Positions 31,712 through 63,885 of a stretch of DNA of 64,000 nt are shown piece after piece. A program made the translations under genes and the position numbers. The notes under the pieces are model-generated. The model did not search any database, was not told the origin of the DNA, and saw only the letters and a list, made by a program, of their open reading frames with translations. Numbering within the stretch: the first letter of the stretch is position 1; the number at the start of each line of letters is the position of its first letter. This DNA comes from Actinotalea fermentans ATCC 43279 = JCM 9966 = DSM 3133. Lineage in GTDB: Bacteria > Actinomycetota > Actinomycetes > Actinomycetales > Cellulomonadaceae. Location: the NCBI GenBank assembly GCA_000767215.1, contig AXCX01000001.1, positions 1 to 64,000 of the forward strand. Reading direction: 5' to 3'.

Positions 31712-31785
<74 letters not shown>

Positions 31786-42861: not shown

Positions 42862-44103
42862 CTAATGGCCCGACGGTGCAGGGTGGACGGTTCCGTCGGG
42901 GAGCCGCGCGCCCTTGCACACGGGGTTGGACCAGCCGAGGTAGCCGGTACCGCTGACGTAGCCGGCGTTGAGCTGGGCGGAGGAGAGCAGGTACACCCCG
43001 CCGTGGTTGCCTGTGGCGGAGTCGAACACGCCGTTGGAGGTCACCATGACCTTCTTCGGGTCGCAGCCGGGGTCGGCTTGGACGACGACGGAGACGTGGC
43101 CGGCGGGTCTGCCGGTGCGCCAGAAGACGAAGGACCCCAACGGAGGGCAGGCGTCGCCGGGGTGGGCGTTGCCGGTGGCGACCATCTGCCGCCAGTGCTC
43201 GGCGGCGGTGGGGTAGCCGGAGCCGACGTAGCCGTAGGCGCGGCAGGCGAGGCGGTCGCAGAGCTGGTGCCAGCCGGAGGTGACGCCGACGTAGGACATG
43301 GCGGTGCGGACGGCGGTGGCGACGTCGTGCGGGGTGCCGGGCGGGACCACGACGTCGCCGGTGCCGAGGCCGGGTAGGCACCCGACGCCCGAGGTGTCCA
43401 GGGGGCCAGACGGCTCGGGCGTCGGGGCGCTCGTGGGGCCGGTCGCGGCGTCGTCGGGGAGGTCGCTGCGGATCCCGGCGTCGGTTACGGTAGTCCACTC
43501 GCTGACGCGCCGGTCGACGTTGTCGATGAACCGTGCGGTGACCGTCGGGATGTCGGGGTAGGTGCGCAGGCGGGACTCGCCGGCGTTGTGGGCGATGATC
43601 AGCGCGTCGAGCAGCGGCAGTTGCGAGGATGCCCACCCGGGGTGATCGGCACGGATCTGGCGGACGCCGGCGAGGCGGTTGCACAGGTACTGGCCGCCGT
43701 AGCGGGCGTGGGTCAGGGGGTCGGCGATGTCGCGGACGCCGTTGGCGTCCCGGTCGGCGTCGAATCCGTGGCCGTAGACGCCGGTCCAGATGGCCTCGTT
43801 GATCTGGAAGAGGCCCCAGGTGCCGCCGTTGGAGTCGTCGGCGTAGGCGTCGGGGCGGAAGCCGGACTCCTGTGCCATGACCGCCGCGATCCACGCCTCA
43901 GGCAGGTCCGGACAGGCGGCCTTGGCCTCCCTGATCCAGGCCCTCGCTTCGAGGGGCACGGGAGCCTCGGCCGCCAGCACCCCGCCGGCGGAGGTCTCGA
44001 TGCAGGCGCTGGCGCCCGCGCCGATGCCGATGGCGGCGAGCACCGCGACAGCGGGTACGACGGCGCACCCCGCCCCGCCGAGCAGCAGCAGCTTTTTGAT
44101 CAC
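42862..44103 (-). CDS. Secreted peptidoglycan hydrolase: lysozyme-like SLT plus CHAP/NlpC-like domain
   Basis: A 413-aa cell-wall hydrolase that would open a path for the transfer channel. Residues 1-33 are a signal sequence or anchor (IKKLLLLGGAGCAVVPAVAVLAAIG). The lysozyme-like SLT domain spans about 50-215: AAVMAQESGFRPDAYA (catalytic Glu), GGTWGLFQINEAIW, YGGQYLCNRLAG. A Ser/Pro/Thr linker follows (about 230-250), then a CHAP-like domain with CRAYGYVGSGYPTAAEHW and PLGSFVFWRTGRPAGHVSV. The GTG at 44103 overlaps the coupling-protein stop in GTGA. Comparable hydrolases occur in Gram-positive T4SS loci. Confidence 0.9.
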   Translation of the reverse strand: MIKKLLLLGGAGCAVVPAVAVLAAIGIGAGASACIETSAGGVLAAEAPVPLEARAWIREAKAACPDLPEAWIAAVMAQESGFRPDAYADDSNGGTWGLFQINEAIWTGVYGHGFDADRDANGVRDIADPLTHARYGGQYLCNRLAGVRQIRADHPGWASSQLPLLDALIIAHNAGESRLRTYPDIPTVTARFIDNVDRRVSEWTTVTDAGIRSDLPDDAATGPTSAPTPEPSGPLDTSGVGCLPGLGTGDVVVPPGTPHDVATAVRTAMSYVGVTSGWHQLCDRLACRAYGYVGSGYPTAAEHWRQMVATGNAHPGDACPPLGSFVFWRTGRPAGHVSVVVQADPGCDPKKVMVTSNGVFDSATGNHGGVYLLSSAQLNAGYVSGTGYLGWSNPVCKGARLPDGTVHPAPSGH

Positions 44104-45920
44104 GGTGTTCCCCTTCCGGTCTCGTCGCGTGCGGCGGCTTCGACCGCCTTCTGGTCCGCCCGCAGGGCGGCAGCGTCACGGCGCGCCGTCCATGGGGCGA
44201 GGTCGATGACGACGGGTCGTGTGTGGCGCAGCAGGAGGACGCCGGTGCCGAAGGGCAGGGTCCGCAGCACGGACGGCGGCATGACGGGCACCATGCGTAC
44301 GGAGGTCGACGTGGAGTGTTCGCCCGCGCGGCCCACGGAGCGGGTCGAGGTGAGCTCGTCGATCTCGCCGAGGAGGCGGGAGACGTCGTCGAGGTCGCGG
44401 TACTTGGCGAGACCGCCGAGGACGAGCTTGACGGTCGCGGCGTCCCAGATCGCGTCGGCCGCGTGCTCGCCCCAACGGTTCCGGGCCTGGGCCAACGACT
44501 GCAGAACGGCCAGGGTGGTGATGCCGGATCCACCGCCTTCGGCCATCAGCTGAGGCAGCGACGGCAGCGGGGTGAGGTTGGCGATCTCGTCCAGCGCCAG
44601 GAGCAGGGGCGGGTCCAGGCGCGCACCGGGGGAGCGAGCCGCGATGCTGCGCGCCGTCTCGGTGATGTCCTCGACGAACGCCGCCACCAGTGGGGCGCAG
44701 GAGCCGGAGCTGACGGCGGAGGCGAGCAGGTAGAGGGTGCCGGACTCCCGCAGGAACGTCGCGGGGTTGAACTCCTCGCCGGGTGCGGGGTCGACGGCGG
44801 CCAGGACGTCGGGATCGGCGAGCGCGGCCAGGGACTGTCGGACGCCGAGCCAGACGGAGTCGCGGGTGCGGGGGTCGGCGTGGATCGCCGCCTCCAGTGC
44901 GTCGGCCCAGCCGGACGCCGCCGACGGGTGGCGGTTCAGGGTGGTGACGGCGTCTTCGGCGAGCACCGGGTTCAGCGACCAGCGGTAGAGGTCGACCGCG
45001 CGTCGGCCGTCGAGCGCGGCGGCGTGGAGCAGGCACCGCAGCGCGGTCTCGGTCTGTCCTGCCCAGAAGTCGGAGTCGGAGACGGTGCGGCCGAAGCCGG
45101 CGCCGGCGGCGAGGCCGCGGGCACGGACCAGGGCGGTTCGCGGGGTCTCGCAGCCGCGCACCGGGGACCAACGAAGCCCGCCGGGGAGCCCGGCGAGTCG
45201 TTGCGGGTCGAAGATCGCGACAGGGCCGCGTCGGGCGCGGGCGCGCATCGTGACTGCGAGGCTGTCGGGCCTGGTGGAGGTGGCGAGGACCGGCCCGGGC
45301 GCCTCGAGCACCCACGGGATCACGACGTGTAGACCCTTGCCCATGCGGGGTGGGCCGACGAGGAGCGCCGAGTCCTCGACGGAGCACCAGAGCTCGCGGC
45401 CGCGGACGCGACCGACCCGCAGTCCGACCTGCTCGGGGCTGGGGCGCGGGCCCGTCGATGGGCGGACGACGGCGCCTTTACGCACCAGGGCGCGTCGACC
45501 CGCGGCAGCTGAGGCCTCGGCCGCTGTGGCGAGCCCGGGAAGGCTGCGCAGCGACCGCTCGCGGTCGGCTCCGGCCGAGCCGGCCACCAGCCGCCACGCC
45601 ACAACGACGGCGCCGGCCACCAGCGCGACGACGACGGCTGTGATCGTCCAATAGAGCCAGGGGGCGGGGAGTGCCTCCGGCGCGGGCCAAGCACTGGCGG
45701 GCTCAGCGGGCGAGCCGAGCGCGCGCAGGGCGTCGAGCGGGCCGCCGGCGGGCGCGGGTCGACCGGTGAGGAGGCAGGCCAGCGCGGCTCCGCACCACAG
45801 AACCGCGCCGAGCCCGAGAGCAGCCGCACCGGCCCAGAGCACCCACGAGGTCACGTCCAGGCCGCCGCCCATCCGCGGATGGCGACTGATCGGGCGTCGT
45901 GCAGGCGGACGGCGCGTCAT
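44100..45920 (-). CDS. VirD4-like type IV coupling protein (TraG/TraD family)
   Basis: A 606-aa membrane ATPase that links the relaxosome to the transfer channel. Two N-terminal membrane helices lie at about 25-52 and 88-113. Walker A GPPRMGKG is at 189-196 (LLVGPPRMGKGLHVVIPWVL), Walker B LLLALDEIANLTPLPSLP, followed by GSGITTLAVLQSLAQARNRWG, characteristic of VirD4/TraG proteins. The ATG overlaps the DnaB-N-like gene in ATGA and the stop overlaps the hydrolase. Its Pro/Ala-rich linker between helix two and the ATPase is long. Confidence 0.9.
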   Translation of the reverse strand: MTRRPPARRPISRHPRMGGGLDVTSWVLWAGAAALGLGAVLWCGAALACLLTGRPAPAGGPLDALRALGSPAEPASAWPAPEALPAPWLYWTITAVVVALVAGAVVVAWRLVAGSAGADRERSLRSLPGLATAAEASAAAGRRALVRKGAVVRPSTGPRPSPEQVGLRVGRVRGRELWCSVEDSALLVGPPRMGKGLHVVIPWVLEAPGPVLATSTRPDSLAVTMRARARRGPVAIFDPQRLAGLPGGLRWSPVRGCETPRTALVRARGLAAGAGFGRTVSDSDFWAGQTETALRCLLHAAALDGRRAVDLYRWSLNPVLAEDAVTTLNRHPSAASGWADALEAAIHADPRTRDSVWLGVRQSLAALADPDVLAAVDPAPGEEFNPATFLRESGTLYLLASAVSSGSCAPLVAAFVEDITETARSIAARSPGARLDPPLLLALDEIANLTPLPSLPQLMAEGGGSGITTLAVLQSLAQARNRWGEHAADAIWDAATVKLVLGGLAKYRDLDDVSRLLGEIDELTSTRSVGRAGEHSTSTSVRMVPVMPPSVLRTLPFGTGVLLLRHTRPVVIDLAPWTARRDAAALRADQKAVEAAARDETGRGTP

Positions 45921-47035
45921 CCCGCCACCGGACCCTCGCGCTCGGCCACCGGAGTCGCGGCTGCACCGACGAGCCGCAGTGGCGACGTCCCGGGCTCGCG
46001 GTGGTCGTCGAGCATCCCTGCGCCGTCCCGGAGGGCGGTGGTGATGAGGTGGCCGGTGTCGACGAGGTCCTCGACGCGCAGGCCCGGGTTCGCCGCGCCG
46101 GACATCAGCTGCTCGGCGCCATGGTCGGCGATGCGCCGGAGCTGGTCGATCCAGACGGTCCGCTCGACCTCACGCACTGGGGCATGTCGGCCCGCCTCCA
46201 CGGCTTCCCGCAGCTCCGTCAGAGTGGGTGCGGGTTGGCCGTGGTGGCACAGGCGAGCCGTCGCGGCCGCCACGGTCACGACGTCGACCGGCTGCCGGAG
46301 TTCGGCGAGTTCGAGCATCACGCCGTAGGCGGTCCGCCAGGACGGCGATGAGATCCGTTGAGGTGGCAGGTGGGCGCCGACCGCTGTGACCTCGGGCGGG
46401 TGGGTGATGAGGGCTCCGACGAGCAGCGCCTCATGCGCCTGCTCGATCGCGGTGTCTCGGTCGGGATGGTTCTGCAGGAGCTTGTCCGCGCCCAGGCGCA
46501 GGCCCGGATTCCGGAGCGCAGGTCGGAGCTGTATCGGCGTCCGATCCTGTGCGGACTCAGGGAAGCCCATGGCGGCCGCCCAACGCCAGGCCACGGAGTC
46601 GAGGGCGGCGTCGACCAGCGCGCACGTGGACGACATGGGCACGGACTCGCGGGAGAGCGCCGACTGAAGTGCACCAGCCCGTAGGAGGATGCCGACGCCG
46701 GCGACCTCCCGGCGCAGGCTGGCCTCCACGACGATGCGCCCGTAGGTACCCGCGTTCGGGGCAGCAGGCACCGCTTGCAGCAGGTCGTGGACGACGACGC
46801 CCGGTGAGGCGCTGGGAAGTCGTCCGGCGAGGTCTCCGGCGACGGCCATGGGATCGATCGGATCACCGGCCGTGTCGCATTCACGCAGCAGCGAGAAGAC
46901 GGTGCCGTGGCGCGGGTCGGAGAAGTCGCCCGGGCGGAGCCAGCGGCGTACAGAGGCCAGCGACTGGGGGTCGAGTATGAGCGACCCGAGCAGCGCCTGC
47001 TCGGCGAGGCGGGTCGCTTCGTCCGGCCGGATCAT
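45917..47035 (-). CDS. Protein with two DnaB N-terminal-like domains, no helicase core
   Basis: A 372-aa protein that reads as two copies of the DnaB-helicase N-terminal helical domain, at about 1-115 (EQALLGSLILDPQSLASVRRWLRPGDFSDPRHGTVFS in parts) and 192-310 (HEALLVGALITHPPEVTAVGAHL and later WRTAYGVMLEL). There is no P-loop, so it is not a helicase. In actinobacterial elements such proteins are encoded within the transfer block; a role as an adaptor for a host helicase or primase is only a guess. It overlaps the VirB4 gene and the coupling-protein gene in ATGA. Confidence 0.75.
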   Translation of the reverse strand: MIRPDEATRLAEQALLGSLILDPQSLASVRRWLRPGDFSDPRHGTVFSLLRECDTAGDPIDPMAVAGDLAGRLPSASPGVVVHDLLQAVPAAPNAGTYGRIVVEASLRREVAGVGILLRAGALQSALSRESVPMSSTCALVDAALDSVAWRWAAAMGFPESAQDRTPIQLRPALRNPGLRLGADKLLQNHPDRDTAIEQAHEALLVGALITHPPEVTAVGAHLPPQRISSPSWRTAYGVMLELAELRQPVDVVTVAAATARLCHHGQPAPTLTELREAVEAGRHAPVREVERTVWIDQLRRIADHGAEQLMSGAANPGLRVEDLVDTGHLITTALRDGAGMLDDHREPGTSPLRLVGAAATPVAEREGPVAG

Positions 47036-48285
47036 GGCGTGCCCCGCATCGCTGCGTCGGTGTCGAAGAGCGCCAGCTCGGCTGCGCTCAGGTGGTGGTG
47101 CACCACGTGGGTCCGGCGAGGCATCTTCCAGAGGCCTGTCCCGCGGGGGAGTGCGGTGAGCACGTCACGCTCCGCGGTGGACAGGCCCAAGGCCGTTCTC
47201 GTGAGATCGAGCTGGTCGCTCTCCTGTCGGTAGACGATGCGTGTCGAACAGTCGGCGAGGAGTCCTTCGGCGAGCGCGCGTGCCTCGCTGCCGGCGCGCC
47301 CGACGGCGTCCAGGTCGGACAGTCGGTGGAGCACGAGGAGGTTGGCGATGCCGTAGGCGCGTGAGAGCTTCCACTGGGCCTGCATCCGCCGGACCAGGGG
47401 GACAGAGCGCATGAGTCGCCACGCCTCGTCGTAGATGACCCACCGCTTGGCGGTGCCGGTCGCGATGGCGTGCTCCAACCACGACGAGGCGCAGGCGGTC
47501 GCGACCGCCAGGGCGTCGTCGTCCGAACCGAGGCCCGAGAGGTCCAGCACGGTCATCGGCGCGGCATGGTCCAAGACCTGCGTCGAGGGGCCGTCGAACA
47601 TGCCGGCGAGGTCGCCCCGGACGAGCCGACGCAGGGCGAAGTAGAGGTCTCGTCCGTCGTCGGCGGTGCCCGGCGCGAGGGCCTCGACGGCGTCGCTGAG
47701 CGTGGGATCGGGACGGATCTCCACGCTCGTGATGGCGGCCTCGAGGCCTTCGCGCTCGGCGGGTCGGAGTTCCCGTCGGAGCGTCAGCTCGGCGAGCGCT
47801 GCGAGGAGGCGGAGGCGCGGGCCGTGCGCCATGTCGCGCGCCGCGCCGTGCGCGTCGAGGGGGTTCAGCCGCGTTGGGAGGCCCGGTCCGAGGCGGACGA
47901 CGACGCCGTCGACCGTCTCGGCCACGGGGCTCCACTCGCCCTTCGGATCGCCCGGGACGTAGACCCGGCGGCCGCTGGCGATGGCACGCACCGCCAGCGA
48001 CTTGGCGAGGGCTGACTTCCCCTGGCCGATGACGCCGGCGAGGACGGCGTTGGGGTTGGTGAGCTCACCGGCGGCGTACAGCGCCCAGGGGTCGAAGCAG
48101 AACGGGCCACCGGTCATCGCGTCGACGCCGACGAGGGCGCCGGTCGTGCAGGGGGAGCCGGCGAGGAACGGGTAGGCGCCCGCGAGTGTGGCCGAGGACG
48201 CGCGGTGCGCCGGAATGCGCAGCGATCCGGCCGGGCGGAGTCGGCCACGCGAAGGGCTCGGTGCGGGGGCGGCAGCGCGGTTCAC
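47032..48285 (-). CDS. VirB4/TraE-like conjugation ATPase
   Basis: A 417-aa ATPase expected to power the transfer channel. Walker A GVIGQGKSALAKSL is at about 84-97, with VYVPGDPKGEWSPVAETVDG, RWVIYDEAWRLMRSVP (Walker B, DEAW), YGIANLLVLHRLSDL and STRIVYRQESDQLDLTRT, as in VirB4 C-terminal domains. It is shorter than typical VirB4 because the N-terminal half is absent; the neighbouring SCO6880-family protein may fill that place. The GTG at 48285 overlaps the upstream stop in GTGA, deciding this start. Confidence 0.85.
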   Translation of the reverse strand: MNRAAAPAPSPSRGRLRPAGSLRIPAHRASSATLAGAYPFLAGSPCTTGALVGVDAMTGGPFCFDPWALYAAGELTNPNAVLAGVIGQGKSALAKSLAVRAIASGRRVYVPGDPKGEWSPVAETVDGVVVRLGPGLPTRLNPLDAHGAARDMAHGPRLRLLAALAELTLRRELRPAEREGLEAAITSVEIRPDPTLSDAVEALAPGTADDGRDLYFALRRLVRGDLAGMFDGPSTQVLDHAAPMTVLDLSGLGSDDDALAVATACASSWLEHAIATGTAKRWVIYDEAWRLMRSVPLVRRMQAQWKLSRAYGIANLLVLHRLSDLDAVGRAGSEARALAEGLLADCSTRIVYRQESDQLDLTRTALGLSTAERDVLTALPRGTGLWKMPRRTHVVHHHLSAAELALFDTDAAMRGTP

Positions 48286-49700
48286 ACCACACCTCGCGCG
48301 AGGGGCACCGTGGCCGCCAGGTGCGCCGAAGCCTGCTGGCCGACCAGCCGGCGGAGTTCGCACAGCGCCTGCGCTGCCGCCGCCTCCGTCGCGGCGCAGG
48401 CTGCGTCGAGCTCCTCGGCGGAGCGAGCCGTGACGGTGACGAGCCCGGTGAAGCGCAGGTCGCCGTGGCCCGCGACGAGCTCCTGTTCTCGGCGGAGCAG
48501 GTCGTCGAGCTCGGCGCGGATGGACTCGTCCTCGACCTGTCCGATCCGTGCGCGCTGTGCGGAGTCGGCGGCGTGCTCGGCCTTGGCCCGCCGGATCTCG
48601 CGGAGGGAGGAGGCGATGGGAAGTGGTTCGGCGATCAGGGTGACGGTGCGCACGGCGTCGGGGGTCAGTACGAGGGGCTGCAGGAAGCCGGGGTGGACGT
48701 CGGACCGGGGCCACTCGGCGATCCAGTACGTCGAGTGGACGCCACCGTCGGTGGTCACGTGCGTCCACGACTCTGCGATGCCCATGGCGGGAGGTGCCGC
48801 GGCGCTCGGGACGTGCTCGGGGGCGGGGCGTGTCGTGGGGTCGTAGGCGGTGCGCAGCACCGAGTGGACCTCGGCCGCGCTCACCCAGCCTGTGATGTCG
48901 ATGTCGGCGCCCGCGAGGGCATCGGTGACGGCGCCGAGCTCTTGCTCGAGCGTGCGCACGTCGGGTTCGCTCAGCTGTCGGAGGCCGCCGCGGGGCGGGC
49001 GCAGGGCGACCGCAAGCAGCGTTTCGGCACGGCGACCGACGTAGGCGGCGTCGTCCATCAGCTCCGCCAGGACGGTTCCCGCCCACGAACCCGTGGCGAT
49101 CGCGTTCTCTCGCCACCAACGGTGCGCAGCGGTGTCTCCCGCCGGAGTGGTCCGCAGGACCAGCTGGACTCGCCGGACCGTCCGGCGTCGGCCGATGGTG
49201 GCCAGCGCGCGGCCCCAGCCGTCGACCTTCCGACCCTGGGTGCCGGGGTCGTCCAGGACGAAGCCCCGGCCGGAGACGCGCGCCACCGCGGTCACGGCCC
49301 CACCTCGGCGGTCGACGAGGAGCGCCGCACCCAAGGCCGGTGTCGCGACGACCGGGATCGTGCCAACGCCCGGCAGCTCAAGGCTGCGGCGCAGCACGGG
49401 TAGCGCGACCTCGCGAGCGCCGGTGAGGCGGCGGATGCCCCAAGCGGCGGACAGGGGTACCCACTCGACGAGCGGTCGTCCGCCGACGGACCCCAGCGCC
49501 AAGACCAACAGTGGCACCCAGATCGCGGCAGAGGCGGCAAGCCCCGCCCCGCCGCCGGTGTAGACACCGGTGATCGCCACGAACGTCGCAACGCCGAGGA
49601 CGACGAGCTGGGCGGCGCCGAGCCCGAGCAGGATGCCGCGACGCTCGCGTCGGCCGAATCGGACGAAGGGGCCCTCGGGAACGGTCGTCGCGGCGGTCAT
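48282..49700 (-). CDS. SCO6880-family membrane protein of a conjugative T4SS
   Basis: A 472-aa protein with two N-terminal membrane helices (GILLGLGAAQLVVLGVATFV and AAIWVPLLVLALGSVGG) and a large cytoplasmic domain including RGFVLDDPGTQGRKVDGWGR and RTLEQELGAVTDALAGADID. It matches the SCO6880 family, usually encoded between DUF6112/VirB6-like and VirB4-like genes in actinobacterial elements. It may be the membrane partner of the VirB4 ATPase. The ATG at 49700 overlaps the VirB6-like stop. Confidence 0.8.
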   Translation of the reverse strand: MTAATTVPEGPFVRFGRRERRGILLGLGAAQLVVLGVATFVAITGVYTGGGAGLAASAAIWVPLLVLALGSVGGRPLVEWVPLSAAWGIRRLTGAREVALPVLRRSLELPGVGTIPVVATPALGAALLVDRRGGAVTAVARVSGRGFVLDDPGTQGRKVDGWGRALATIGRRRTVRRVQLVLRTTPAGDTAAHRWWRENAIATGSWAGTVLAELMDDAAYVGRRAETLLAVALRPPRGGLRQLSEPDVRTLEQELGAVTDALAGADIDITGWVSAAEVHSVLRTAYDPTTRPAPEHVPSAAAPPAMGIAESWTHVTTDGGVHSTYWIAEWPRSDVHPGFLQPLVLTPDAVRTVTLIAEPLPIASSLREIRRAKAEHAADSAQRARIGQVEDESIRAELDDLLRREQELVAGHGDLRFTGLVTVTARSAEELDAACAATEAAAAQALCELRRLVGQQASAHLAATVPLARGVV

Positions 49701-50845: not shown

Positions 50846-51149
50846 CTGACCCGAGTCCGGCGAAGAACCCGACGATCGCGTTCGCGGCTCCGATGAGCAG
50901 AGCCCCGCCGGCCGAGACCACCACGCCCGACTTCCCACCCGACGCGTACTGGTAGTTGCCCTGCTGGTGGGCCAGCGCCCACACGATCACCGAGACCACG
51001 AGGCCGGCGACGCAAGCCACCAGGCCCCACGTCAGCAGGGCGCCGACGATCGACCGGACCACGGGCAGACCGGGCAGCCCGTCCTCGTTCGGGCTGATCC
51101 CCGGGTCGGCCGCTGCGAGCGACCATCGTGCGAGTCCGGACGCGACCAT
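50838..51149 (-). CDS. DUF6112-type small membrane protein, VirB2-like
   Basis: A 103-aa protein with two hydrophobic helices (SIVGALLTWGLVACVAGLVV and VVVSAGGALLIGAANAIVGF) linked by a basic loop with NYQYASGGKSG. It fits DUF6112, a family in actinobacterial T4SS loci with a VirB2-like layout. The ATG at 51149 follows GGGAGGTCAGC and is chosen over an upstream in-frame start. It is the first gene of the downstream part of the transfer block, separated from the restriction gene by 152 bp in which I see no gene. Confidence 0.8.
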   Translation of the reverse strand: MVASGLARWSLAAADPGISPNEDGLPGLPVVRSIVGALLTWGLVACVAGLVVSVIVWALAHQQGNYQYASGGKSGVVVSAGGALLIGAANAIVGFFAGLGSGV

Positions 51150-51301
51150 GGCTGACCTCCCGTCGTCGTGCACGCCGGATGGCGCGCTCACGTAGAGGTG
51201 TGCCGCGAGGACGACCAACCTGGGCAGTGGTCGGTGGGCAGGATGACCGCGCGCCGTGACGCCGATGTCCGACGGGAGCGCGAAAGCTAGGCCGTGCCGC
51301 C

Positions 51302-54310: not shown

Positions 54311-54404
54311 GGCGCCACCGTACGGGTGCCGCCGCCGTCAGCGGGGGTGGCTCGCCGACGGCCGCGTGCGTCTCGATGTGGGTAGGGCAAGGGATGATGG
54401 CGGC

Positions 54405-56018: not shown

Positions 56019-56069
56019 GTCGCGATCGACACCGGGCCTGATCATCTGGCTGATCGCGCCGAGCGGCCC

Positions 56070-59000
56070 CTAGTGCTTCGAGGACCTCGGGGGGACCATC
56101 TCCGAGTCCTCGAGATACCTCCTCCGAAGGCGATCCGCGGCTGTCGCATCGTCGGCAGCGATCGCGGCTTCGAGCGCATCGTCAAGCAAGAGCTCGGACC
56201 ACGCATCGACGATCAGCCCCTTCGTTGCCGCCTCAAGACCGTCCCGTGCACGGCCGGACTCGAGCAGCAGGCGGCTGAGGACGTGGGCAACGTCGGCGAT
56301 TGTGCTGATCATGTGCTGAACGTCGTGCTCGGCCCACGTGTAGTCGGCGTCCCGCACTCCGAGGAGGGGTCGGTCGCGTACGAGGTTCATCGCGGACCGC
56401 AGGTCGTCGATCCCGTCGAGTCCGGCCGCGAGTCCCCGGCGAGCGTGTCTCTGGAAGTCGGACCAGTCGGTCGTGGCCGCGCCCCCGAGTCGGTAGATGC
56501 CGTCCGCGCCGACGACGGGGAGGACGTCCGCGCCGACGCGTTGCCGCGTCCGGTAGACGAGGCTGTTGCGGGTCTGGCTGTCGATGCGCTCGCCGTACCA
56601 GAGGGCCTCGTCGAGCTCGGGTCCCGTCGCTCGCCCGCGGAGGGCGAGGTACACCAGGAGCTCGGTCGATCGCCGACTCAGGTGACCGGCCTGGTGGGGG
56701 AGCCCCGTGATCAGCACCGGTCCGAGGAGTTCGACCCGGACGGTGGGCCGCGGAGCCTCGGAGGTCTCGTCCGCTTCCTCGGTCGGTGGCAGTGCCGCCG
56801 CCGCGTCGAGGATCTCCACGGTCAACGGGGTGGGGCGCTGCAGCTGGGCGTTGTCGACCGGTGGGGCGAGTGCCAATAGCTCGACCAGCCGGCGCAGCCC
56901 TTCTGCGTTCAGGCGCTGAGGGTGGACGTGGAGACCGAGCGGCTCGATGCGGGCGCCGGCCTCATCGGCCGTCACCGTCCATCCTGTCTCGGACGTGGCG
57001 TGCACTGTCACGACGACGGTGCCCATCCAGGGCCTCGGGTGCGTCTTCGGGGCGTCGGGGGAGTCGAAGACAACGGGCAGCCAGACGTCCCCTATGAGCC
57101 GGTCCGATCGGGCCTGCAGCGTGTCGTCCAGACCGGCTGCCCCCAGAGCGTTGCGCACATCGCTGAGCCGACGATCGGCGGCGCGGGCTATCGCTGCTGC
57201 CGGCGCAGTTTGTAGTCGGGCCGGGTCGCACGCTCGGGCAAGTGATTCGAAGTCCTCACCGGCCACGAGTCCGATGCGGCCGGTGAGGTCGTTGGTGACG
57301 AGCTCGGCGACGAGCGCCCGGCGGATGTCGGCTGCAACCGCCGGGTCGCCGCCGATGGTCAGCGTCCCAGCCGCCTCGAGGTTCAGGAGCACGGTCCCGT
57401 CGGCGGAGTGGCCGAGTGTCACGAGTGTCGGGAACGGCTCCGGGCGGCCCGGGTCGTCCGCACTCGGCATCGAGGTCAGTGCCCGGTGCGGCGCTGACCA
57501 TGTCCTGGCGCCCGTCGCGGTGAACGGGGGGACGGGCGCGTCGTCGTCGTCGCTCAGGTGCAGCGTGACCTCCTCCGGTGTCACGACGACGGCGGCCACG
57601 CGTGGGAGGTCGCGCTCAGACTCGTAGCAGCGTGTGGCGAAGTGCGAGAACGCCAGCTTGAGTGCGCCGACCGTCAGGGGAGGTTCCGCGGTCCGCAGAG
57701 TGCGCTCGGCCCGGTGAGTAGGCGAGCCCACTTCCGGGAGTGCGATCCGCTCCCCGACCCGACGTGCCCGTTGCTGGAGGCGGCGGCGCCTCGCAAGCTC
57801 ACCGATCACTCCGGCCGCAGCCAGGGACGTGAGCCCGAGGAGGAACCTCGGCGCGAGGTCGGCGTCATCGTCGTGGGCATCGACAACCTCGGTCGGGTTG
57901 TCGTCCTCGGCCGGCACCTGGTCCTCGGGGGGTTCGGCGACGTGGCGACCGCCCGTGGCGTCATCGGCTGCCCGCGTTCCGTCATCGTCGTGCTGCACTC
58001 CGTCATCGGGGTTCGCGGCGGTGTCACCGCTGGCAGCCTCCGGTGGAGCAGTCCCGAGCTCCGCGTCATTGTGGACTGGCGGCGCGTCATCCAGGCCGGC
58101 TTGCGCGTCATCGTGTGTCCCGAGCGGCAGGCCTGAACTGCTCACGAGGTCCTCCGGGAGCCGGAGCGTCCAGCCGGGGCGGATGAGGTCGGGGTCCTCC
58201 AGCGTGCCTCCGTCCGGCTGCGGTCGGCCGCGGTTGAGGTCGACGATCTCGGGGTAGCGCTGCGGATCGCCCAGCTGTTCGGCAGAGATGCCCCAGAGCG
58301 TGTCGCCAGGCACGACCGTGTAGTCGGCGGCGGCGCGCTCAGCCGCCTCGCTGGGTGCCGGAGTCAGCACCGGCTGCGCGGCGGCGTCGACTGCGTCCGC
58401 GGGAAGGAGGAGGTGCCATCCCGGGTAGATCCAGTGAGCATCGGTGAGTGCGCGACCGTCGGGCTGAGGGCGCCCGAGGTTGAGGTCCCGGATCTCGGTG
58501 TACCGGTGCCCGGAGCCGAGGTGACGCTCGGCCAGGTCCCAGAGGGTGTCGCCCCGCACAACGGTGACGGAGGGGGTTGTCGTCGCGGTCACCGAGGCTG
58601 GCCGAGCCGGGTTCGCCCCATCCGCGTCGGGCGAGGAGTTCTCCGGCGCCTGGGCGCGGTCAGGTGTCTGGACGTGCACGCGCGGCATCGCCGAGACGAC
58701 CGGCGGGTCACCCGCAGCGGCGGCGGATGCCGTCGCTACGGGGGCGGTCATCAGGAGGCCCGCTGTGGCGACGAGCCCGGCCGCGAGTCGCTGCGCGGGG
58801 CCGAGCAGCGGTAGGCGCGGAGTCGGTACACCCCGGAGCGCCGCGATCAGTTCGATGACGAGGGGCACGGCGAAGGCGGCCCAGGCGAGCCATGCGATGA
58901 CGGTGAGTGTGTCGATCAGCAGATTCCCGTCATCGGGCCGGCTCAGTGCGTCGATGACGCCTTCGAATGACGGGGCCGATGACGGAACGCGGATCGGGGC

Positions 59001-59132
59001 CACCGCGGCGAGGGCGATGGGCACGCCGATGACGAAGCCGGCGATGCCCGCGGCGGCCACGAGGCCCCGGGCGACCTCGGTGCCCTTTGGGTGTGCCGCA
59101 CGGTGAACCCGGTTCTCGACCGTCTGCTTCAT
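56070..59132 (-). CDS. Membrane protein with two LysM domains and a C-terminal winged-helix/BTAD region
   Basis: A 1020-aa protein of unusual build. Three N-terminal membrane helices (about 23-45, 72-99, 115-138), then LysM domains at about 189-244 and 270-326 (TVVRGDTLWDLAERHLG; TVVPGDTLWGISAEQLG) which bind peptidoglycan. A long acidic low-complexity linker and a further hydrophobic segment (FLLGLTSLAAAGVIGELA, about 440-455) follow. The last 220 residues (from about 798) read as an OmpR-like winged helix plus BTAD domain (VRVELLGPVLITGLPHQAGH; STELLVYLAL). Such proteins precede Tad genes in actinobacterial elements. ATG start; overlaps the TadG-like gene. Confidence 0.85.
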   Translation of the reverse strand: MKQTVENRVHRAAHPKGTEVARGLVAAAGIAGFVIGVPIALAAVAPIRVPSSAPSFEGVIDALSRPDDGNLLIDTLTVIAWLAWAAFAVPLVIELIAALRGVPTPRLPLLGPAQRLAAGLVATAGLLMTAPVATASAAAAGDPPVVSAMPRVHVQTPDRAQAPENSSPDADGANPARPASVTATTTPSVTVVRGDTLWDLAERHLGSGHRYTEIRDLNLGRPQPDGRALTDAHWIYPGWHLLLPADAVDAAAQPVLTPAPSEAAERAAADYTVVPGDTLWGISAEQLGDPQRYPEIVDLNRGRPQPDGGTLEDPDLIRPGWTLRLPEDLVSSSGLPLGTHDDAQAGLDDAPPVHNDAELGTAPPEAASGDTAANPDDGVQHDDDGTRAADDATGGRHVAEPPEDQVPAEDDNPTEVVDAHDDDADLAPRFLLGLTSLAAAGVIGELARRRRLQQRARRVGERIALPEVGSPTHRAERTLRTAEPPLTVGALKLAFSHFATRCYESERDLPRVAAVVVTPEEVTLHLSDDDDAPVPPFTATGARTWSAPHRALTSMPSADDPGRPEPFPTLVTLGHSADGTVLLNLEAAGTLTIGGDPAVAADIRRALVAELVTNDLTGRIGLVAGEDFESLARACDPARLQTAPAAAIARAADRRLSDVRNALGAAGLDDTLQARSDRLIGDVWLPVVFDSPDAPKTHPRPWMGTVVVTVHATSETGWTVTADEAGARIEPLGLHVHPQRLNAEGLRRLVELLALAPPVDNAQLQRPTPLTVEILDAAAALPPTEEADETSEAPRPTVRVELLGPVLITGLPHQAGHLSRRSTELLVYLALRGRATGPELDEALWYGERIDSQTRNSLVYRTRQRVGADVLPVVGADGIYRLGGAATTDWSDFQRHARRGLAAGLDGIDDLRSAMNLVRDRPLLGVRDADYTWAEHDVQHMISTIADVAHVLSRLLLESGRARDGLEAATKGLIVDAWSELLLDDALEAAIAADDATAADRLRRRYLEDSEMVPPRSSKH

Positions 59133-59581
59133 GTCCCACCTCCGGTGACGCCGTGCACGAGGACCGCCCGGCCGTGGCCTGTGACGCTGAACGACTCGAT
59201 GCCGACGAGCCCGAGGAACACGCTCGGCGCGGTGACCACGACGTCGACCTCGATGGCGGTGCCGTCGGGCGAGAGCCCCACGGTGCCGGTGACGCCTGCC
59301 GCCGCGAGGTACCCCTGGGCGGACTCGACGGCTGCGGCGCGGTCCACCGTGACGTCGCCAGCCACCAGGGCGGCGGGGTCCACCGCCTGTCCGGCGGCGC
59401 GGGCAGCTTCGGCCGCGATGCGGTCGGCCCGTTGTGTGGCGCGCAGCTTGGCGCCGCCGTCGACCACGAGGCCGCAGAGCACCAGGAGGCCGAGCATCGT
59501 GACGGCGACGAACACGGTGACGGAGCCCACGTCCGGCTCCTCGTGGCGCATCCGGTGCCGTAGCCAGATGAGCGCGTTCAT
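59129..59581 (-). CDS. TadG-like pseudopilin
   Basis: A 150-aa protein with a short basic N-terminus, a prepilin-like site at Gly19 followed by SVTVFVAVTMLGLLVLCGLV, and a globular C-terminal part. The residue at +5 is Phe where the other proteins here have Glu, which separates it from them. TadG-type proteins are minor pilins of Tad pili. The ATG overlaps the upstream TadE-like stop and the gene ends in ATGA with the LysM-BTAD gene. Confidence 0.75.
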   Translation of the reverse strand: MNALIWLRHRMRHEEPDVGSVTVFVAVTMLGLLVLCGLVVDGGAKLRATQRADRIAAEAARAAGQAVDPAALVAGDVTVDRAAAVESAQGYLAAAGVTGTVGLSPDGTAIEVDVVVTAPSVFLGLVGIESFSVTGHGRAVLVHGVTGGGT

Positions 59582-60009
59582 CGCGTACGGAACCTGTCGA
59601 CGGCGGAGGTCGCCTCCGCGGTGATGGTGCGGCCGCCGGGGAGCCCGGGGACCGCGAGGTCCGCCATCGTGACCGTGCAGCTCGCGCGCACGGTCACGTT
59701 CGCGGACGTGCCCAGGGGCGCCGTCAGACCGGACGCGTCGACCTCGACCATCGTCGTCACGCACCGGATGTCGCGCGCAGCCGTCTCCCGGTCCACGGCT
59801 GACTCCGCAGCGATCTGCGCCGCCGCGACGCTCCGCTCCAGGGAGGCCGCGCGCGCCGCGGCGGCCGCCGCCTGCTCGACCGCAGACGCTGCCACCTCGA
59901 CCCGTCCGCCGAGGACGAGCAGGCCGAGCACAAGGATCAGGACCGGGGCGAGGATCGCGAGCTCGAGCGTCACGCTGCCGCGCTCGGGGTCCTGCGTTCG
60001 CGCTCTCAT
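59578..60009 (-). CDS. TadE-like pseudopilin
   Basis: A 143-aa protein with the prepilin-like segment RG-SVTLELAILAPVLILVLG: Gly11 then Glu at +5, followed by one hydrophobic helix. TadE-like pseudopilins are processed by a prepilin peptidase and take part in Tad pilus assembly. The ATG overlaps the upstream TadE-like gene. No peptidase gene is present in the window. Confidence 0.8.
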   Translation of the reverse strand: MRARTQDPERGSVTLELAILAPVLILVLGLLVLGGRVEVAASAVEQAAAAAARAASLERSVAAAQIAAESAVDRETAARDIRCVTTMVEVDASGLTAPLGTSANVTVRASCTVTMADLAVPGLPGGRTITAEATSAVDRFRTR

Positions 60010-60452
60010 GGCGCACCTGCGACGGTGAAGCGCTCGACGGGCGCCGCAGCGGACTGCGCGACCACCGGCCCGGGCATGCCCGGAACCAGGGAGACCGACC
60101 GTCCTGAGACCTCGACCACGACAGTCCCGGCGCCCTGTGCAGTCTGGGTGGCCGACGCGTCCAGCAACGTCTGGGAACCGTGGGCCGCCACGAACGCCGT
60201 GGCGCTGTCAACGCCCGCTCCCGCCGGCGCCTGGTAGGCCGCTGCTGCGACTGCGCCCTGTTGCGCCGCAGCGAGCGCGACCGACCGTGCGTGGAACCAG
60301 AGGCCGTACTGGACGAGCAGCGTGACGAGCAGCAGCAGTGCCGGGAACAGGATCGACAGCTCAACGGTGACCGACCCGTCGTCGCGCGGGCGCGTCGACG
60401 CGGCCGGCGTCGTTCGGCTGCGCGGGAGCGTGTGACGGTCGGAGCCCGACAC
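60006..60452 (-). CDS. TadE-like pseudopilin
   Basis: A 148-aa protein with a 25-residue basic, low-complexity leader and a prepilin-like segment DDG-SVTVELSILFPALLLLVT (Gly26, Glu at +5). The soluble part follows. It is homologous in layout to the neighbouring TadE-like gene. It overlaps that gene in ATGA and lies 7 nt after the pilin gene. Confidence 0.8.
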   Translation of the reverse strand: MSGSDRHTLPRSRTTPAASTRPRDDGSVTVELSILFPALLLLVTLLVQYGLWFHARSVALAAAQQGAVAAAAYQAPAGAGVDSATAFVAAHGSQTLLDASATQTAQGAGTVVVEVSGRSVSLVPGMPGPVVAQSAAAPVERFTVAGAP

Positions 60453-60459
60453 GGTGACC

Positions 60460-60666
60460 TCAGGTGATCTGGTCGACGCGGCGCTGCACGGCGGCGGTGA
60501 TGGCGACGACGAGCAGCGTCGCGACCGCGATGAGTCCGAGGACGATGATGACGAGCTCGAGCGTCGAGGCGCCGACGTCGTCGTCGCCGAGGCGCCGGCG
60601 GACAGCCCGTCGCGCGGACGTGATGTAGCCCTGCAGGACGGCGAGGGCGGCCAGGGTGTGCAGCAT
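60460..60666 (-). CDS. Flp-like type IVb pilin
   Basis: A 68-aa small pilin candidate. After a basic leader (SARRAVRRRLGDDDVG) comes G32, then ASTLELVIIVLGLIAVATLL with Glu at +5, the classic type IV prepilin pattern. Small Flp pilins make the Tad fibre. The ATG at 60666 follows GAAGGAGCCCGAC, an excellent ribosome-binding site; an in-frame ATG at 60696 overlapping the TadC-like stop is possible but lacks such a site. The size and position between the membrane-protein genes and TadE fit this class. Confidence 0.8.
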   Translation of the reverse strand: MLHTLAALAVLQGYITSARRAVRRRLGDDDVGASTLELVIIVLGLIAVATLLVVAITAAVQRRVDQIT

Positions 60667-60692
60667 GTCGGGCTCCTTCGGGGCGGGTCGGG

Positions 60693-61580
60693 TCATCCGG
60701 TGAAGATGCGGGCGAAGGCCGGGAATGCGATGAGGGCCATGAACGCGACGCCCAGCAGGGCGACGGGGATGGTCATGTGTTCCGATGCGGCGTTGGCGTC
60801 GGCGGCCGCGCCGGCGAGCAGCTGGGTGCGCAGCGACGTGGCCCGGGCGCGCAAGGTGCCGTAGACGGCGGCGCCGTCGGTGCCGGAGAGCCGCACGATG
60901 TCGGCCAGGTCGGAGAGCTCGAGGACTCCGGTCTGCTCGGCGAGTCGGTACAGGCCGTCCCAGGCCGGGCGGCCCGTCACCTGCGCGGTGAGTAGGGCCT
61001 CGCGGATCCGCTGGAACTCGCGTGACCGGCCGACCGTGGCGGCGCGTTCGAGGGCCTCGGTGGCGCCGGCGTCGGCCGCCCGTTCCAGCGCGACGAGCTC
61101 GAGGTACACGCAGGCGGCCCGACGCATGGCGGCTCGCGCCTTCCCGGCCCGACGACGCATCTCGGCGTCTGGGACGAGCGAGAGGGCGCCAGCGGCCACG
61201 ACGCCGATACCCAGCGGAAGGATGGGCATCGCCGTCACGCCGACGAGGGCGAGCAGCGCGGCCATCACGAGGGGGAAGGCGAGACCGAGGACGGCGTAGC
61301 CGAGCTTGCGTGCTGCCAACGACTCGACCGTCTGCTCGGTCACCGCCAGCTCCGCCGCGAAGCGTCGCAGCCCGAGAGCCTCGATGACCCTCGGCAGCGC
61401 GCGGCCGCGCATCCGTGCGATCGCACCGGCCTCTCGGCCCGCGGGTTCCTGGGCCGCCGAGCGATCGAGGCGGGCGAGGACGGCGGCAAGGTCCGGCTGG
61501 GTGGGCACCAGTCCCGCGGCAATGACGGTGACGCCGGCCCCGACGAGCGCACCCGCGAGCAGGACCTCCCAGCCGGTCAT
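60693..61580 (-). CDS. TadC-like type II secretion F-family membrane protein
   Basis: A 295-aa inner-membrane platform protein with several hydrophobic segments (EVLLAGALVGAGVTVIAAGL, PLVMAALLALVGVTAMPIL, IPVALLGVAFMALIAFPAF) and a T2SSF-type cytoplasmic helical domain (EALERAATVGRSREFQRIR). It pairs with the adjacent TadB-like protein. ATG overlaps that gene's stop. Confidence 0.85.
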   Translation of the reverse strand: MTGWEVLLAGALVGAGVTVIAAGLVPTQPDLAAVLARLDRSAAQEPAGREAGAIARMRGRALPRVIEALGLRRFAAELAVTEQTVESLAARKLGYAVLGLAFPLVMAALLALVGVTAMPILPLGIGVVAAGALSLVPDAEMRRRAGKARAAMRRAACVYLELVALERAADAGATEALERAATVGRSREFQRIREALLTAQVTGRPAWDGLYRLAEQTGVLELSDLADIVRLSGTDGAAVYGTLRARATSLRTQLLAGAAADANAASEHMTIPVALLGVAFMALIAFPAFARIFTG

Positions 61581-62458
61581 CGGGACCACCTCGCCGTGAG
61601 GGGTTCGCCCGCGGGACCGGTGAGGAACCGGGGTTCCCGCGGCGACAGCGTGAGGCGGTGGATCCACACAAGACAGGCGACGAAGCCTGCGGCGACCGCC
61701 GCGAGGACCAGCTGACCGAGGCCGCTCCGGTACGGGGCGACGTAGGTCGTGTTGAGTGCCCCCAACGCGACGACGCCGACAGTGATGAGGGTGACCGCCC
61801 TGGCGGTCGCGCGTGGCTTGGCGCGCTCCGCCTCCACCCGGCGCCGCGCGGCGACCTCGTCGGCGACGGAGTCGGCAACGGACACCAGCACCCGGGACAG
61901 GCCCGGGCCGCGGCGGCGGGTCGCCAGGACCAGGGCGCTCACGACGAGATCGGACGAGGCGTCGTCGAGGTCGTCGGCGAACCCGCGCAGCGCTTGCTCC
62001 GGCGACCAGCGCGCGGCCAGGCGCGCGCCGAGCGCCGCGACCTCCGTCCGGATCGCCTCCGGGGCCGTCGCCACCGAAGCGGCCACGGCCTGCTCGAGCC
62101 CGGCGCCTGCGACGAGGACGTCGGACAGCCGCCGGGTCCATTCCTCGATCGCCTCGAGCCGGTCGATCCGACGTTGCTCCACGGTGCCCGCACCCAGGAG
62201 GACGGGCATGCCGATGACGGTCCCTGCGGCCAGCACACCGGCGATCGGCCACGCGAACACCGCCCAGACGACCAGCCCGACGGCGAGCGCGCTCACCAGT
62301 CGGATGCGCCGCGATGCGACGTAGCCGCGCAGCGACGCGGCGCCCCTACGGGGCCTCGAGCGACGCGGCGTCACGCTCCGGCGGACACCGGCGATCGTCA
62401 TGACGAATCCGGCGGGCAGCAGCACACCGGCGAGCAGGGCCAGCACCATGGACGTCAT
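61577..62458 (-). CDS. TadB-like type II secretion F-family membrane protein
   Basis: A 293-aa partner of the TadC-like protein. Hydrophobic segments occur at both ends (MVLALLAGVLLPAGFVMTIA; LVSALAVGLVVWAVFAWPIA; LVLAAVAAGFVACLVWIHRL), with a central T2SSF domain including LEQAVAASVATAPEAIRTEV. It probably forms the inner-membrane platform that the TadA-like ATPase acts on. The ATG at 62458 overlaps the ATPase stop. Confidence 0.85.
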   Translation of the reverse strand: MTSMVLALLAGVLLPAGFVMTIAGVRRSVTPRRSRPRRGAASLRGYVASRRIRLVSALAVGLVVWAVFAWPIAGVLAAGTVIGMPVLLGAGTVEQRRIDRLEAIEEWTRRLSDVLVAGAGLEQAVAASVATAPEAIRTEVAALGARLAARWSPEQALRGFADDLDDASSDLVVSALVLATRRRGPGLSRVLVSVADSVADEVAARRRVEAERAKPRATARAVTLITVGVVALGALNTTYVAPYRSGLGQLVLAAVAAGFVACLVWIHRLTLSPREPRFLTGPAGEPLTARWSR

Positions 62459-63885
62459 CGGGCACCGCCGTTGTCGAGCCATCCGCCGCCGTCGAGCAGG
62501 CGCGCATCGAAGCCGGCCCGGACGAGATCGGGAAGGAAGGTTGGCCGGTGGAGCGGGACCGCCCGACCGTCGAGACCCGGACCGAAGACCGCTGTGGTCG
62601 CGGGACGGGAGGACTCGCCGAGGCCCTCGATGGCGACGACGTCGCTCACGAACCTGCGCTTCGGCCCGCCGGTCGCGGACTCGTCCTCGAGCGTGAGGTG
62701 GACGACGAGGTCGACCGAGCCGGCAAGAAGGCGGTAGGCGAAGGACTCCGTCATGGAGACGCCGGCCGAGAGGCAGAGCGTCACGATCCGGTCGATGCCA
62801 TGCTGTGCGGTCCTGGCGTGGAGCGTGCACATGGAACCGTCGCCGGTGGACATCGCCTCGAGCATGGGCAGCACCTCGGCGCCGCGGACCTCGCCGACGA
62901 TGATGCGGCGGAGGTTCATCCGGAGCGCGTCGGTGACCAGGTCGGTGAGCGTCACCTCCCCGGCGCGCCGTCCGTGCGCGTCGCGCTCCGTCGACCCCTC
63001 ACGCGCCTCCATCGCGACGACACGCGGATGCCGCTCGGGAAGGTCGTGCAGATGGAGCTCGTACTCCTTCTCGATGGTGGCGAAGCGCTCGAGGGGCGGG
63101 AACTCGTTGGCGAGAGCCCGCACCAAGGTCGTCTTGCCCGCGTTCTGCAGACCGGTCACGACCACGTTCTTCCCTGCGCGCACCGTCGCCCGAAGGAAGG
63201 CGGCGACCGTGTGGTCGAAGGTGCCGAGGCGGACGAGGTCGTCGAGGTCGACATCCTTGACCCGGTGCCGCCGGATGACGACGTGCGGCCTCGGCGTCGT
63301 CCACGCCATCGCCGCCAAGCGTGACCCGTCCTCGAGGCGCAGGTGCAGGGACGGGTGGGCGGAGGTGAACGTGCGCTCGTCGGCGCCGGTTCGGGCCGCA
63401 AGGAGCTGCAGCAGCTCGATGAGTTCGGCGTCGGACTCAGCGACAGGGTCGCCCTTCCGGTCGTGACCGTCCGCGTACGAGATCCAGACGGAGTCGCACC
63501 CGTCGACCTCGATGTTCTCGACCAGCGGGTCGTCGACGAGCGGCTGCAGCCGACCGAGCCCGAAGAGCGCCGCCATGACGGCCGAGGCGACTGCCATCTC
63601 GGTCTCGACCGGCCATGGATCGAGTCCTGACGCGACGCGCGCGCGTGCTCGCGCACTGAGCTCGGCCGCCAGCAAGGAACGGGCCAGCTCGCGACGGGCC
63701 GCCGGATCGGGAACCGCATCCGCCTGTAGGCGGGCGGCGAGCACCTCCGCGACTGCCCGCCGGACATCCCGCACCGTGCCGGGGTCGACCGGTCGCGCCG
63801 ATACCCGCTCCCCGCCGAGTAGGGCGGGCAGCGCGGCGGGGGACAGGTGGCCGTTCCGCCGTGGCGTGCGCAGGTCCTCGGTCAT
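62455..63885 (-). CDS. TadA/CpaF-like secretion ATPase
   Basis: A 476-aa hexameric ATPase that drives Tad pilus assembly. Residues 100-140 hold LQPLVDDPLVENIEVDGCDS, typical of CpaF. Walker A GLQNAGKTTLVRALANE is at about 245-261; the Walker B-like block is LRRIIVGEVRGAEVLPMLEA, followed by STGDGSMCTLHARTA with the catalytic His. The ATG at 63885 overlaps an open frame entering from the right in ATGA. It is the first whole gene of the Tad block in the window. Confidence 0.93.
   Translation of the reverse strand: MTEDLRTPRRNGHLSPAALPALLGGERVSARPVDPGTVRDVRRAVAEVLAARLQADAVPDPAARRELARSLLAAELSARARARVASGLDPWPVETEMAVASAVMAALFGLGRLQPLVDDPLVENIEVDGCDSVWISYADGHDRKGDPVAESDAELIELLQLLAARTGADERTFTSAHPSLHLRLEDGSRLAAMAWTTPRPHVVIRRHRVKDVDLDDLVRLGTFDHTVAAFLRATVRAGKNVVVTGLQNAGKTTLVRALANEFPPLERFATIEKEYELHLHDLPERHPRVVAMEAREGSTERDAHGRRAGEVTLTDLVTDALRMNLRRIIVGEVRGAEVLPMLEAMSTGDGSMCTLHARTAQHGIDRIVTLCLSAGVSMTESFAYRLLAGSVDLVVHLTLEDESATGGPKRRFVSDVVAIEGLGESSRPATTAVFGPGLDGRAVPLHRPTFLPDLVRAGFDARLLDGGGWLDNGGAR

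Follow-up and report, generated by a model that had tools for sequence, protein, structure and literature searches.

The paper on the tad-bearing plasmids of Cutibacterium acnes is reportedly that of Davidsson et al. in 2017. These plasmids carry tad genes together with genes for VirB4-, FtsK- and TcpC-like proteins, and a link between the pilus and conjugation is called unclear by the authors (PMC5696575). An actinobacterial plasmid that combines Tad with conjugation-type genes has, accordingly, already been described, with the link left open there, and a related C. acnes plasmid with a tad locus was reported to be transferable (PMC9119108). In Rhodococcus, pilus-assembly and secretion ATPase genes are counted among plasmid conjugal-transfer proteins, and chromosomal tadE and tadA are listed as “conjugal transfer genes” (PMC12915292); among the filament systems compared in another study, Tad is the one most often borne on plasmids (PMC6668835). 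In Gram-negative bacteria, the type IV pilus (T4P) of IncI plasmids aids mating in dilute liquid, and transfer of the genomic island PAPI-1 requires its T4P (PMC12857230). That 2025 review covers T4P with type IV secretion systems (T4SSs) in both cases, and “Tad pil” gives 0 matches in the part of its text that was searched; a text search of part of a paper on actinobacterial T4SS-based integrative and conjugative elements (ICEs) found no Tad pili either, “Tad” matching a place name only (PMC3218068). The open-licence literature, a scope outside which most subscription papers lie, yielded no paper that describes a Tad pilus for an actinobacterial ICE of T4SS type. The present study concerns such an element in Actinotalea fermentans, found in a stretch of 64,000 nucleotides (the window), which is bases 1-64000 of contig C1 (120,716 bp) in a high-GC genome of 3.6 Mb, designated G000. 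A tRNA-Pro-bounded integrative element with conjugation genes, ∼45 kb long and hosted by a member of Cellulomonadaceae, holds both a T4SS gene block and a Tad gene block. Close relatives of this mobile element of soil actinobacteria keep the genes for the thin pilus and those for DNA export together, which suggests that the pilus helps a donor attach to a recipient during DNA transfer.

The element extends from window position 31744 to about 76.77 kb of the contig. A 25-bp exact repeat of the tRNA 3′ part is found at 31744 and at contig position 76727, with a second common stretch directly after it, and a gene for a tyrosine integrase (contig 75395-76360, PF00589 82.5 bits) adjoins the right copy, so that an integrase and attachment (att) repeats at the element ends are both present. 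From the right end, the gene order is integrase, SNF2/PLD helicase, Tad block, restriction-modification pair, T4SS block, DUF6119 gene and, on the other strand, MobF relaxase. The T4SS block (42862-51149) comprises, in order, DUF6112, TrbL, SCO6880, VirB4, the protein with DnaB N-terminal domains, VirD4 and the SLT/CHAP hydrolase; the Tad block (56070 to about 66.8 kb) comprises the lipoprotein, the PKD-type secreted protein, SAF/CpaB, TadZ-like, TadA, TadB, TadC, pilin, two TadE, TadG and the LysM protein. Profile matches place both blocks on the minus strand, which confirms the colinearity proposed in a preliminary description of this DNA, but its “4-nt overlaps throughout” is too strong because such overlaps occur at nine of the 17 junctions within the two blocks, as judged from open reading frame (ORF) ends and inferred starts, several start codons being uncertain. 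Absent from that description are the 1020-aa LysM gene with which the Tad block ends, four genes upstream of TadA beyond the window, the MobF relaxase (36928-40497), the integrase and the att repeats. A clean empty site was sought in relatives and none was shown, the orthologues of the right flanking gene lying on other contigs or far off. In all five relatives fetched, tRNA-Pro comes no more than 3 kb after the orthologue of the left flanking gene. Seven relatives each have one tRNA gene (Pro, Met or Arg) in the stretch around the element, and the tRNA repeat recurs past the element in two of them (G469, at least 40 bp and ∼54 kb apart; G453, 19 bp and ∼61 kb), whereas no long repeat was found in the other five, where the far end may fall outside the stretch examined. 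Both blocks are therefore enclosed by repeats of a tRNA 3′ part in the window element and in two of the seven relatives.

The linkage of the two blocks was surveyed in 150 family genomes, sampled evenly out of a larger set. Among the matches listed, TadA falls into three groups by identity to the window protein: 69-89% (n=20, consisting of 18 matches, the window's own protein and one 74% fragment), 40-51% (n=59) and 35-40%. The last is taken as the chromosomal type, and the four loci of it that were mapped have TadA and some Tad-like genes, with no LysM or T4SS match. In the first group, SCO6880 is found within 30 kb of 13 of the 20 TadA genes, the window included, at spacings of 8.3-27.4 kb, and in all 13 cases it lies on the same strand and downstream, a sharing of strand and order that is more than chance. 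Six of the seven unlinked TadA genes have 1.8-16.6 kb of contig left downstream, which is below the largest spacing observed, and the remaining one (G397:C18) is truncated. Near-full-length VirD4 of at least 72% identity occurs at 16 loci (window included), of which 13 are on the same contig as a first-group TadA; the genomes of the other three (G466:C5, G412:C16 and G537:C31) also have an unpaired first-group TadA that lies at most 17 kb from a contig end, and the two halves in each probably belong together. In the second group, SCO6880 is located within 45 kb of 19 of the 59 TadA genes, always on the same strand and in 16 cases downstream. An alignment of the element's TadA retrieved 35 named loci, most of them from Cellulomonas and Actinotalea. 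Class-wide, SCO6880 is found in 171 of 393 genomes, and 64 of these, picked from the strong matches listed, were examined at cut-offs of at least 100 bits for SCO6880, at least 170 bits for TadA and a distance of at most 45 kb: 11 of 106 SCO6880 loci are linked to TadA. All 13 linked TadA genes, two of them beside SCO6880 matches below 100 bits, share the strand of SCO6880, while 0 of 84 weaker, chromosomal-type TadA, among the matches listed down to ∼106 bits, are linked to it. The preliminary description had named independent occurrence of Tad and T4SS genes in most genomes as what would refute it; such independence holds for SCO6880 at large but not for this lineage, within which the co-conservation of TadA and SCO6880 that it proposed to look for is evident. 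By these sequence comparisons, this ICE lineage inherits the two gene sets as one module.

The two blocks also co-diverge as closely as either does internally. Distance matrices correlate with a mean of 0.75 among six Tad-block proteins and of 0.74 among six T4SS proteins; across the two sets the mean is again 0.74 (0.53-0.90), with p<0.05 in 36 of 36 between-block pairs. Each pair is based on 10-12 family elements, short LysM and VirB4 rows being excluded and host phylogeny left uncontrolled. In the element of G012, VirD4 is 75% identical to that of the window but TadA 43%, and therefore one block has been exchanged and neither lost. For 11 Tad-block genes, the ratio of nonsynonymous to synonymous substitution rates between the window and an element of C. 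carbonis (G503:C5) lies at 0.08-0.29; for the relaxase and seven T4SS genes it lies at 0.07-0.30, with the comparison covering part of VirB4 and part of the relaxase. Both gene sets are thus under purifying selection. In the C. carbonis element (L034), the VirB4 match is in two pieces on separate ORFs, which may reflect a broken T4SS or an imperfect assembly.

What lies between the blocks is, as had been described, restriction genes, namely a Type IIG restriction-methyltransferase and a methyltransferase, but the latter is on the plus strand and is not colinear with the rest. Across 15 elements (window included), 0.26-19.3 kb separate the LysM stop from the first T4SS match, and because this distance varies, the restriction-modification pair is regarded as cargo between otherwise neighboring blocks. 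Gene order in the Tad block is constant in the mapped elements while this stretch varies. In the cargo slot of G509, there is a 36% relative of the methyltransferase. Since one cargo gene is on the plus strand, a single transcript for both blocks is unlikely in the window element. In the comparison with elements lacking the restriction insert, which the preliminary description had called for, the blocks are near neighbors in two relatives, G405 and L085 (the gap in the latter being ∼0.13 kb by sequence), where one transcript is possible.

The features of the element are given in the table. A relaxase, VirD4 and VirB4 are all present, VirB4 being recognized by sub-cut-off matches to VirB4-like models only, and a VirB6-like protein and a wall hydrolase, as in a monoderm T4SS, are supported by PF04610 and PF01464 over their cut-offs; the SLT + CHAP hydrolase probably has a VirB1-like role. 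One VirB4-like model, NF045971, is matched in succession at positions 192-362 and 412-727 by SCO6880 (weakly, E 0.0009) and the VirB4-like protein, and 47032-49700 looks as if VirB4 were divided in two. No helicase-domain match was found in the protein with DnaB N-terminal domains, whose homologues are flanked by VirB4 and VirD4 in the mapped core elements. On the Tad side, the ATPase TadA and the platform proteins TadB and TadC are present, TadC on its own being under the Pfam cut-off. The TadZ-like gene is in the place expected for TadZ and has no Pfam match. Prepilins are cleaved after the glycine of a G-x4-E-type motif, which is the rule behind the pilin and pseudopilin counts in the table. 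A small pilin and TadE/G pseudopilins with this motif are present, and the pilin has a site of prepilin type, DDVG/ASTLELVIIVLG (slash, cleavage point). The prepilin peptidase PF01478 has 0 matches in the element and one elsewhere in the genome (C294), and the host enzyme presumably serves the pilus of the element. The C-terminal part of the LysM protein (56070-57100) looks, by eye, like a cytosolic winged helix-turn-helix (wHTH)/BTAD regulator behind a transmembrane segment; it has no Pfam match and no convincing match in the PDB, where only two chance-like profile matches (E 0.0067 and 0.011) were obtained, and the BTAD/wHTH assignment, a by-eye lead, was not adopted.

Table. Features of the element in the window and, where contig C1 is given, in its continuation
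Feature	Position	Strand	Support
tRNA-Pro(GGG); left attachment site formed by its 3′ part (31744 onward), with a copy at contig 76727	31712..31786	+	25-bp exact repeat
TrwC/MobF-type relaxase-helicase	36928..40497	+	Pfam PF08751 271.9 bits
DUF6119 protein, between relaxase and T4SS block	41051-42757		
SLT + CHAP cell-wall hydrolase	42862..44103	-	PF01464 30.1 bits, over cut-off; CHAP under cut-off
VirD4-type coupling protein	44100..45920	-	PF12696 and PF02534 over cut-off
Protein with two DnaB N-terminal-domain stretches	45917..47035	-	PF00772 88.4 bits, 2 stretches
VirB4-like ATPase (start codon inferred from 4-nt overlap)	47032..48285	-	NCBIfam VirB4-like models, under cut-offs
SCO6880-family protein, 472-aa gene call	48282..49700	-	NF042935 305.6 bits, cut-off 60
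TrbL/VirB6-like (SCO6881-like) membrane protein	49697..50845	-	PF04610 28.2 bits, cut-off 25.9; NF047967 117.4 bits, under cut-off
DUF6112 small protein	50838..51149	-	PF19607 58.9 bits (longer ORF 50838-51218)
Type IIG restriction-methyltransferase (cargo)	51302..54310	-	PADLOC REase_MTase_IIG 597 bits; PF07669
Type II DNA methyltransferase (cargo, opposite strand)	54366..56018	+	PADLOC MTase_II 573.7 bits; PF22837
1020-aa protein with two LysM domains, last gene of Tad block	56070..59132	-	PF01476
TadG-like pseudopilin (true start probably upstream)	59129..59530	-	PF13400 25.9 bits in longer ORF; G-x4-[E/F] motif in 31/31 homologues
TadE-like pseudopilin 2	59578..59973	-	PF07811 26.6 bits; motif in 27/30 homologues
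TadE-like pseudopilin 1	60006..60452	-	PF07811 46.3 bits; motif in 31/31 homologues
68-aa Flp-type pilin (DUF4244-like)	60460..60666	-	PF14029 under cut-off; G-x4-E in 30/30 length-filtered homologues
TadC (T2SSF)	60693..61580	-	PF00482 20.3 bits, under cut-off; homologues in mapped elements
TadB (T2SSF)	61577..62449	-	PF00482 35.2 bits
TadA/CpaF ATPase	62455..63885	-	PF00437 88.8 bits; TIGR03819 171 and VirB11 118 bits, both under equivalog cut-offs
TadZ-like protein, runs past window end	63882-64658 (contig C1)	-	
SAF/CpaB	64655-65335 (contig C1)	-	
Secreted PKD-type protein	65360-66268 (contig C1)	-	
NTF2-fold lipoprotein, first gene of Tad block	66262 to about 66.8 kb (contig C1; start inferred)	-	

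The role of the Tad pilus that we favor, with moderate confidence, is attachment during mating, as part of the transfer module of a T4SS-type ICE. The module would consist of two parts inherited as a unit: the relaxase, the coupling protein and a reduced monoderm T4SS would move DNA, whereas the Tad (type IVc) pilus, the LysM protein and the secreted PKD-domain protein would make and stabilize the contact between donor and recipient, with the prepilin peptidase supplied by the host. The element is thus predicted to transfer DNA and its Tad genes to assemble a pilus, and the PKD protein is a candidate adhesin. Of the preliminary proposal that a Tad pilus acts as the mating or adhesion pilus of this conjugative element, the part that stands is one att-bounded element with co-inherited gene sets, while a role in mating or adhesion is what we infer as the best reading.

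One alternative is that the Tad block is a fixed passenger, which gives the host adhesion or biofilm formation and thereby pays for the element with no role in mating. LysM-Tad modules do exist away from T4SS genes: five of the 40 unlinked second-group loci were inspected over 60 kb and no relaxase, VirD4, VirB4 or SCO6880 was found, the LysM and PKD-type matches being kept in all five, and the unlinked Tad locus of G226 adjoins large adhesin-like proteins, as well as sugar-metabolism and helicase genes. Moreover, 95 of the 106 class-wide SCO6880 loci, some of which may be cut by contig ends, have no TadA of this kind within 45 kb, and the tad locus of a C. acnes plasmid has been taken as serving host adhesion (PMC9119108). 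The unlinked Tad modules and the SCO6880 loci without TadA also weigh against a mating pilus, and several other facts do so as well. A second SCO6880/VirD4/relaxase element of G000, on contig C212 (L074, L134), has no Tad gene matched on its 39.8-kb contig, and therefore this type of T4SS need not have Tad in cis. Partial or broken VirD4 genes of the lineage occur in G491, where the gene has internal stops, and in G437, both genomes without a first-group TadA; the Tad block is broken in two named relatives, L093, with nothing matched after TadC, and L110, with TadA truncated; the matrix test lacks a control for host phylogeny; and function is not given by PKD or NTF2 folds. What speaks against a mere passenger is a Tad block whose place and order are stable in the mapped elements, except in the broken L093 and L110, while the cargo slot turns over, and which co-diverges with the T4SS as tightly as the T4SS genes do mutually; in G012, moreover, one of the two blocks was exchanged and not lost. 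In favor of the attachment reading, each of the 15 family genomes with the lineage TadA contains one or more additional TadA matches at E<=1e-30, and therefore the block is not needed merely to supply the host with a Tad. We consider the passenger explanation possible but doubtful.

Another possibility, which would extend the mating-pilus reading and which we regard as unlikely in this full form, is a dedicated Tad mating pilus throughout the lineage, with the PKD protein as its adhesin, the LysM protein anchoring or sensing the filament in the wall, the NTF2 lipoprotein as a VirB8-like component, otherwise missing, through which the pilus machine docks to the T4SS, and a pilus that can be swapped between elements without a change of the channel. 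Fold predictions bearing on these proteins were made on homologues. The lipoprotein core was modeled as NTF2-like with a predicted local distance difference test (pLDDT) score of 95.2, and its best PDB matches are ARC6/PARC6 (Z 12.9, root-mean-square deviation (rmsd) 3.1, 127 aligned); further matches are TraM (Z 10.5), pIP501 TraH (9.8), TrwG (9.0) and DotI (9.0), which we take to be VirB8-family proteins, tied with many unrelated NTF2 proteins. The model of the secreted protein (pLDDT 80.5) has a C-terminal PKD-like domain, and VIA-align placed its residues 131-268 on PKD domains (Z 11.0, rmsd 1.7, 85 aligned), while Foldseek gave no hit at E<=0.001. A tie between the NTF2 lipoprotein and a conjugative context, seen in 10 of 13 distant T4SS-linked or plasmid loci vs one of five Tad loci without T4SS (Fisher p 0.047), is post hoc and mixes weak scores of hidden Markov models, and it was not relied on.

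It is improbable, in our view, that the export channel itself includes the Tad machine as a working part, with the Tad ATPase replacing VirB11 or a pseudopilus/LysM complex carrying DNA through the thick wall, as modeled for the T4P of PAPI-1. This idea is invited by the score of TadA against the VirB11 model, which is under the cut-off, by profile scans that recognized no VirB8-like and no second VirB11-like gene in the T4SS block, by the structural neighbors of the lipoprotein that opens the Tad block, and by the dependence of PAPI-1 transfer on its T4P (PMC12857230), but this T4SS type survives in elements that lack Tad, the NTF2 fold is very common and here matches ARC6/PARC6 best, enzymes also being present in the tied rows, and the complete set of pilin and pseudopilins indicates a filament. 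A pilus for DNA uptake, by which the element would use or control natural transformation, is suggested by the Flp pilus genes reportedly required for transformation of Micrococcus luteus (PMC4322843; also cited in PMC5696575) but is highly improbable, given the linkage to a relaxase and T4SS and the lack of a competence-family match among the element proteins scanned with Pfam.

Two further genes of the element have weak similarities. The SNF2/PLD helicase between the integrase and the Tad block is weakly DrmD-like, and 32636-34021, just within the left end, has a weak match, under the cut-off, to the ApeA N-terminal domain.

Cell–cell contact by monoderm conjugative elements is poorly known, and a co-inherited pilus module in cultured Cellulomonas and Actinotalea makes testable the question posed by C. 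acnes, namely whether Flp pili are functionally linked to conjugation. Such cultured strains include Actinotalea subterranea HO-Ch2, in whose element (G509:C23, L109) every gene of the Tad and T4SS blocks was matched, and Cellulomonas sp. Root930 (L085). The preliminary statement that the connection of the two machines is not described is partly wrong, because tad with VirB4/FtsK/TcpC-type genes on C. acnes plasmids (PMC5696575) and T4P-assisted conjugation in Gram-negatives (PMC12857230) are published, although the functional link is called unclear in the former. The C. acnes linear plasmids p15.1.R1 and p09-9 and their relatives resemble the element as actinobacterial mobile elements with a tad locus beside conjugation-type genes, but they are linear plasmids for which a MobF/SCO6880 set is not named in the portion of the article available (PMC5696575), whereas the element is an att-bounded ICE in which a LysM-Tad block accompanies the MobF relaxase, VirD4 and SCO6880. 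IncI plasmids of the R64/TP114 kind likewise have a separate T4P on a T4SS-bearing element (PMC12857230; TP114, PMC9045228), but there the pilus accompanies a Dot/Icm-like T4SS in Gram-negatives, while here it is of Tad type in a monoderm. PAPI-1 combines a T4P with VirB4 and VirD4 homologues (PMC12857230); its T4P is Gram-negative, and the element has more T4SS genes. The search markers of actinobacterial T4SS-based ICEs (PMC3218068), which are integrase, TrwC relaxase, VirB4 and VirD4, are all present in the element. By tblastn over 72,556 plasmid records, TadA-like sequences (E<=1e-30) were found in 202 and SCO6880-like sequences (E<=1e-10) in 50, the two lists being counted separately. The Kitasatospora linear plasmid NZ_CP108405 and the Microbacterium plasmid pYJNG differ from the element in having no SCO6880 match in their 41-kb stretches, and NZ_CP108405 has other transfer-type genes. 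Both, however, share with the element the order SAF-TadZ-TadA-TadB-TadC-small gene-TadE-TadE-TadG-LysM, and pYJNG also has a MobF relaxase, which in that plasmid adjoins the Tad genes.

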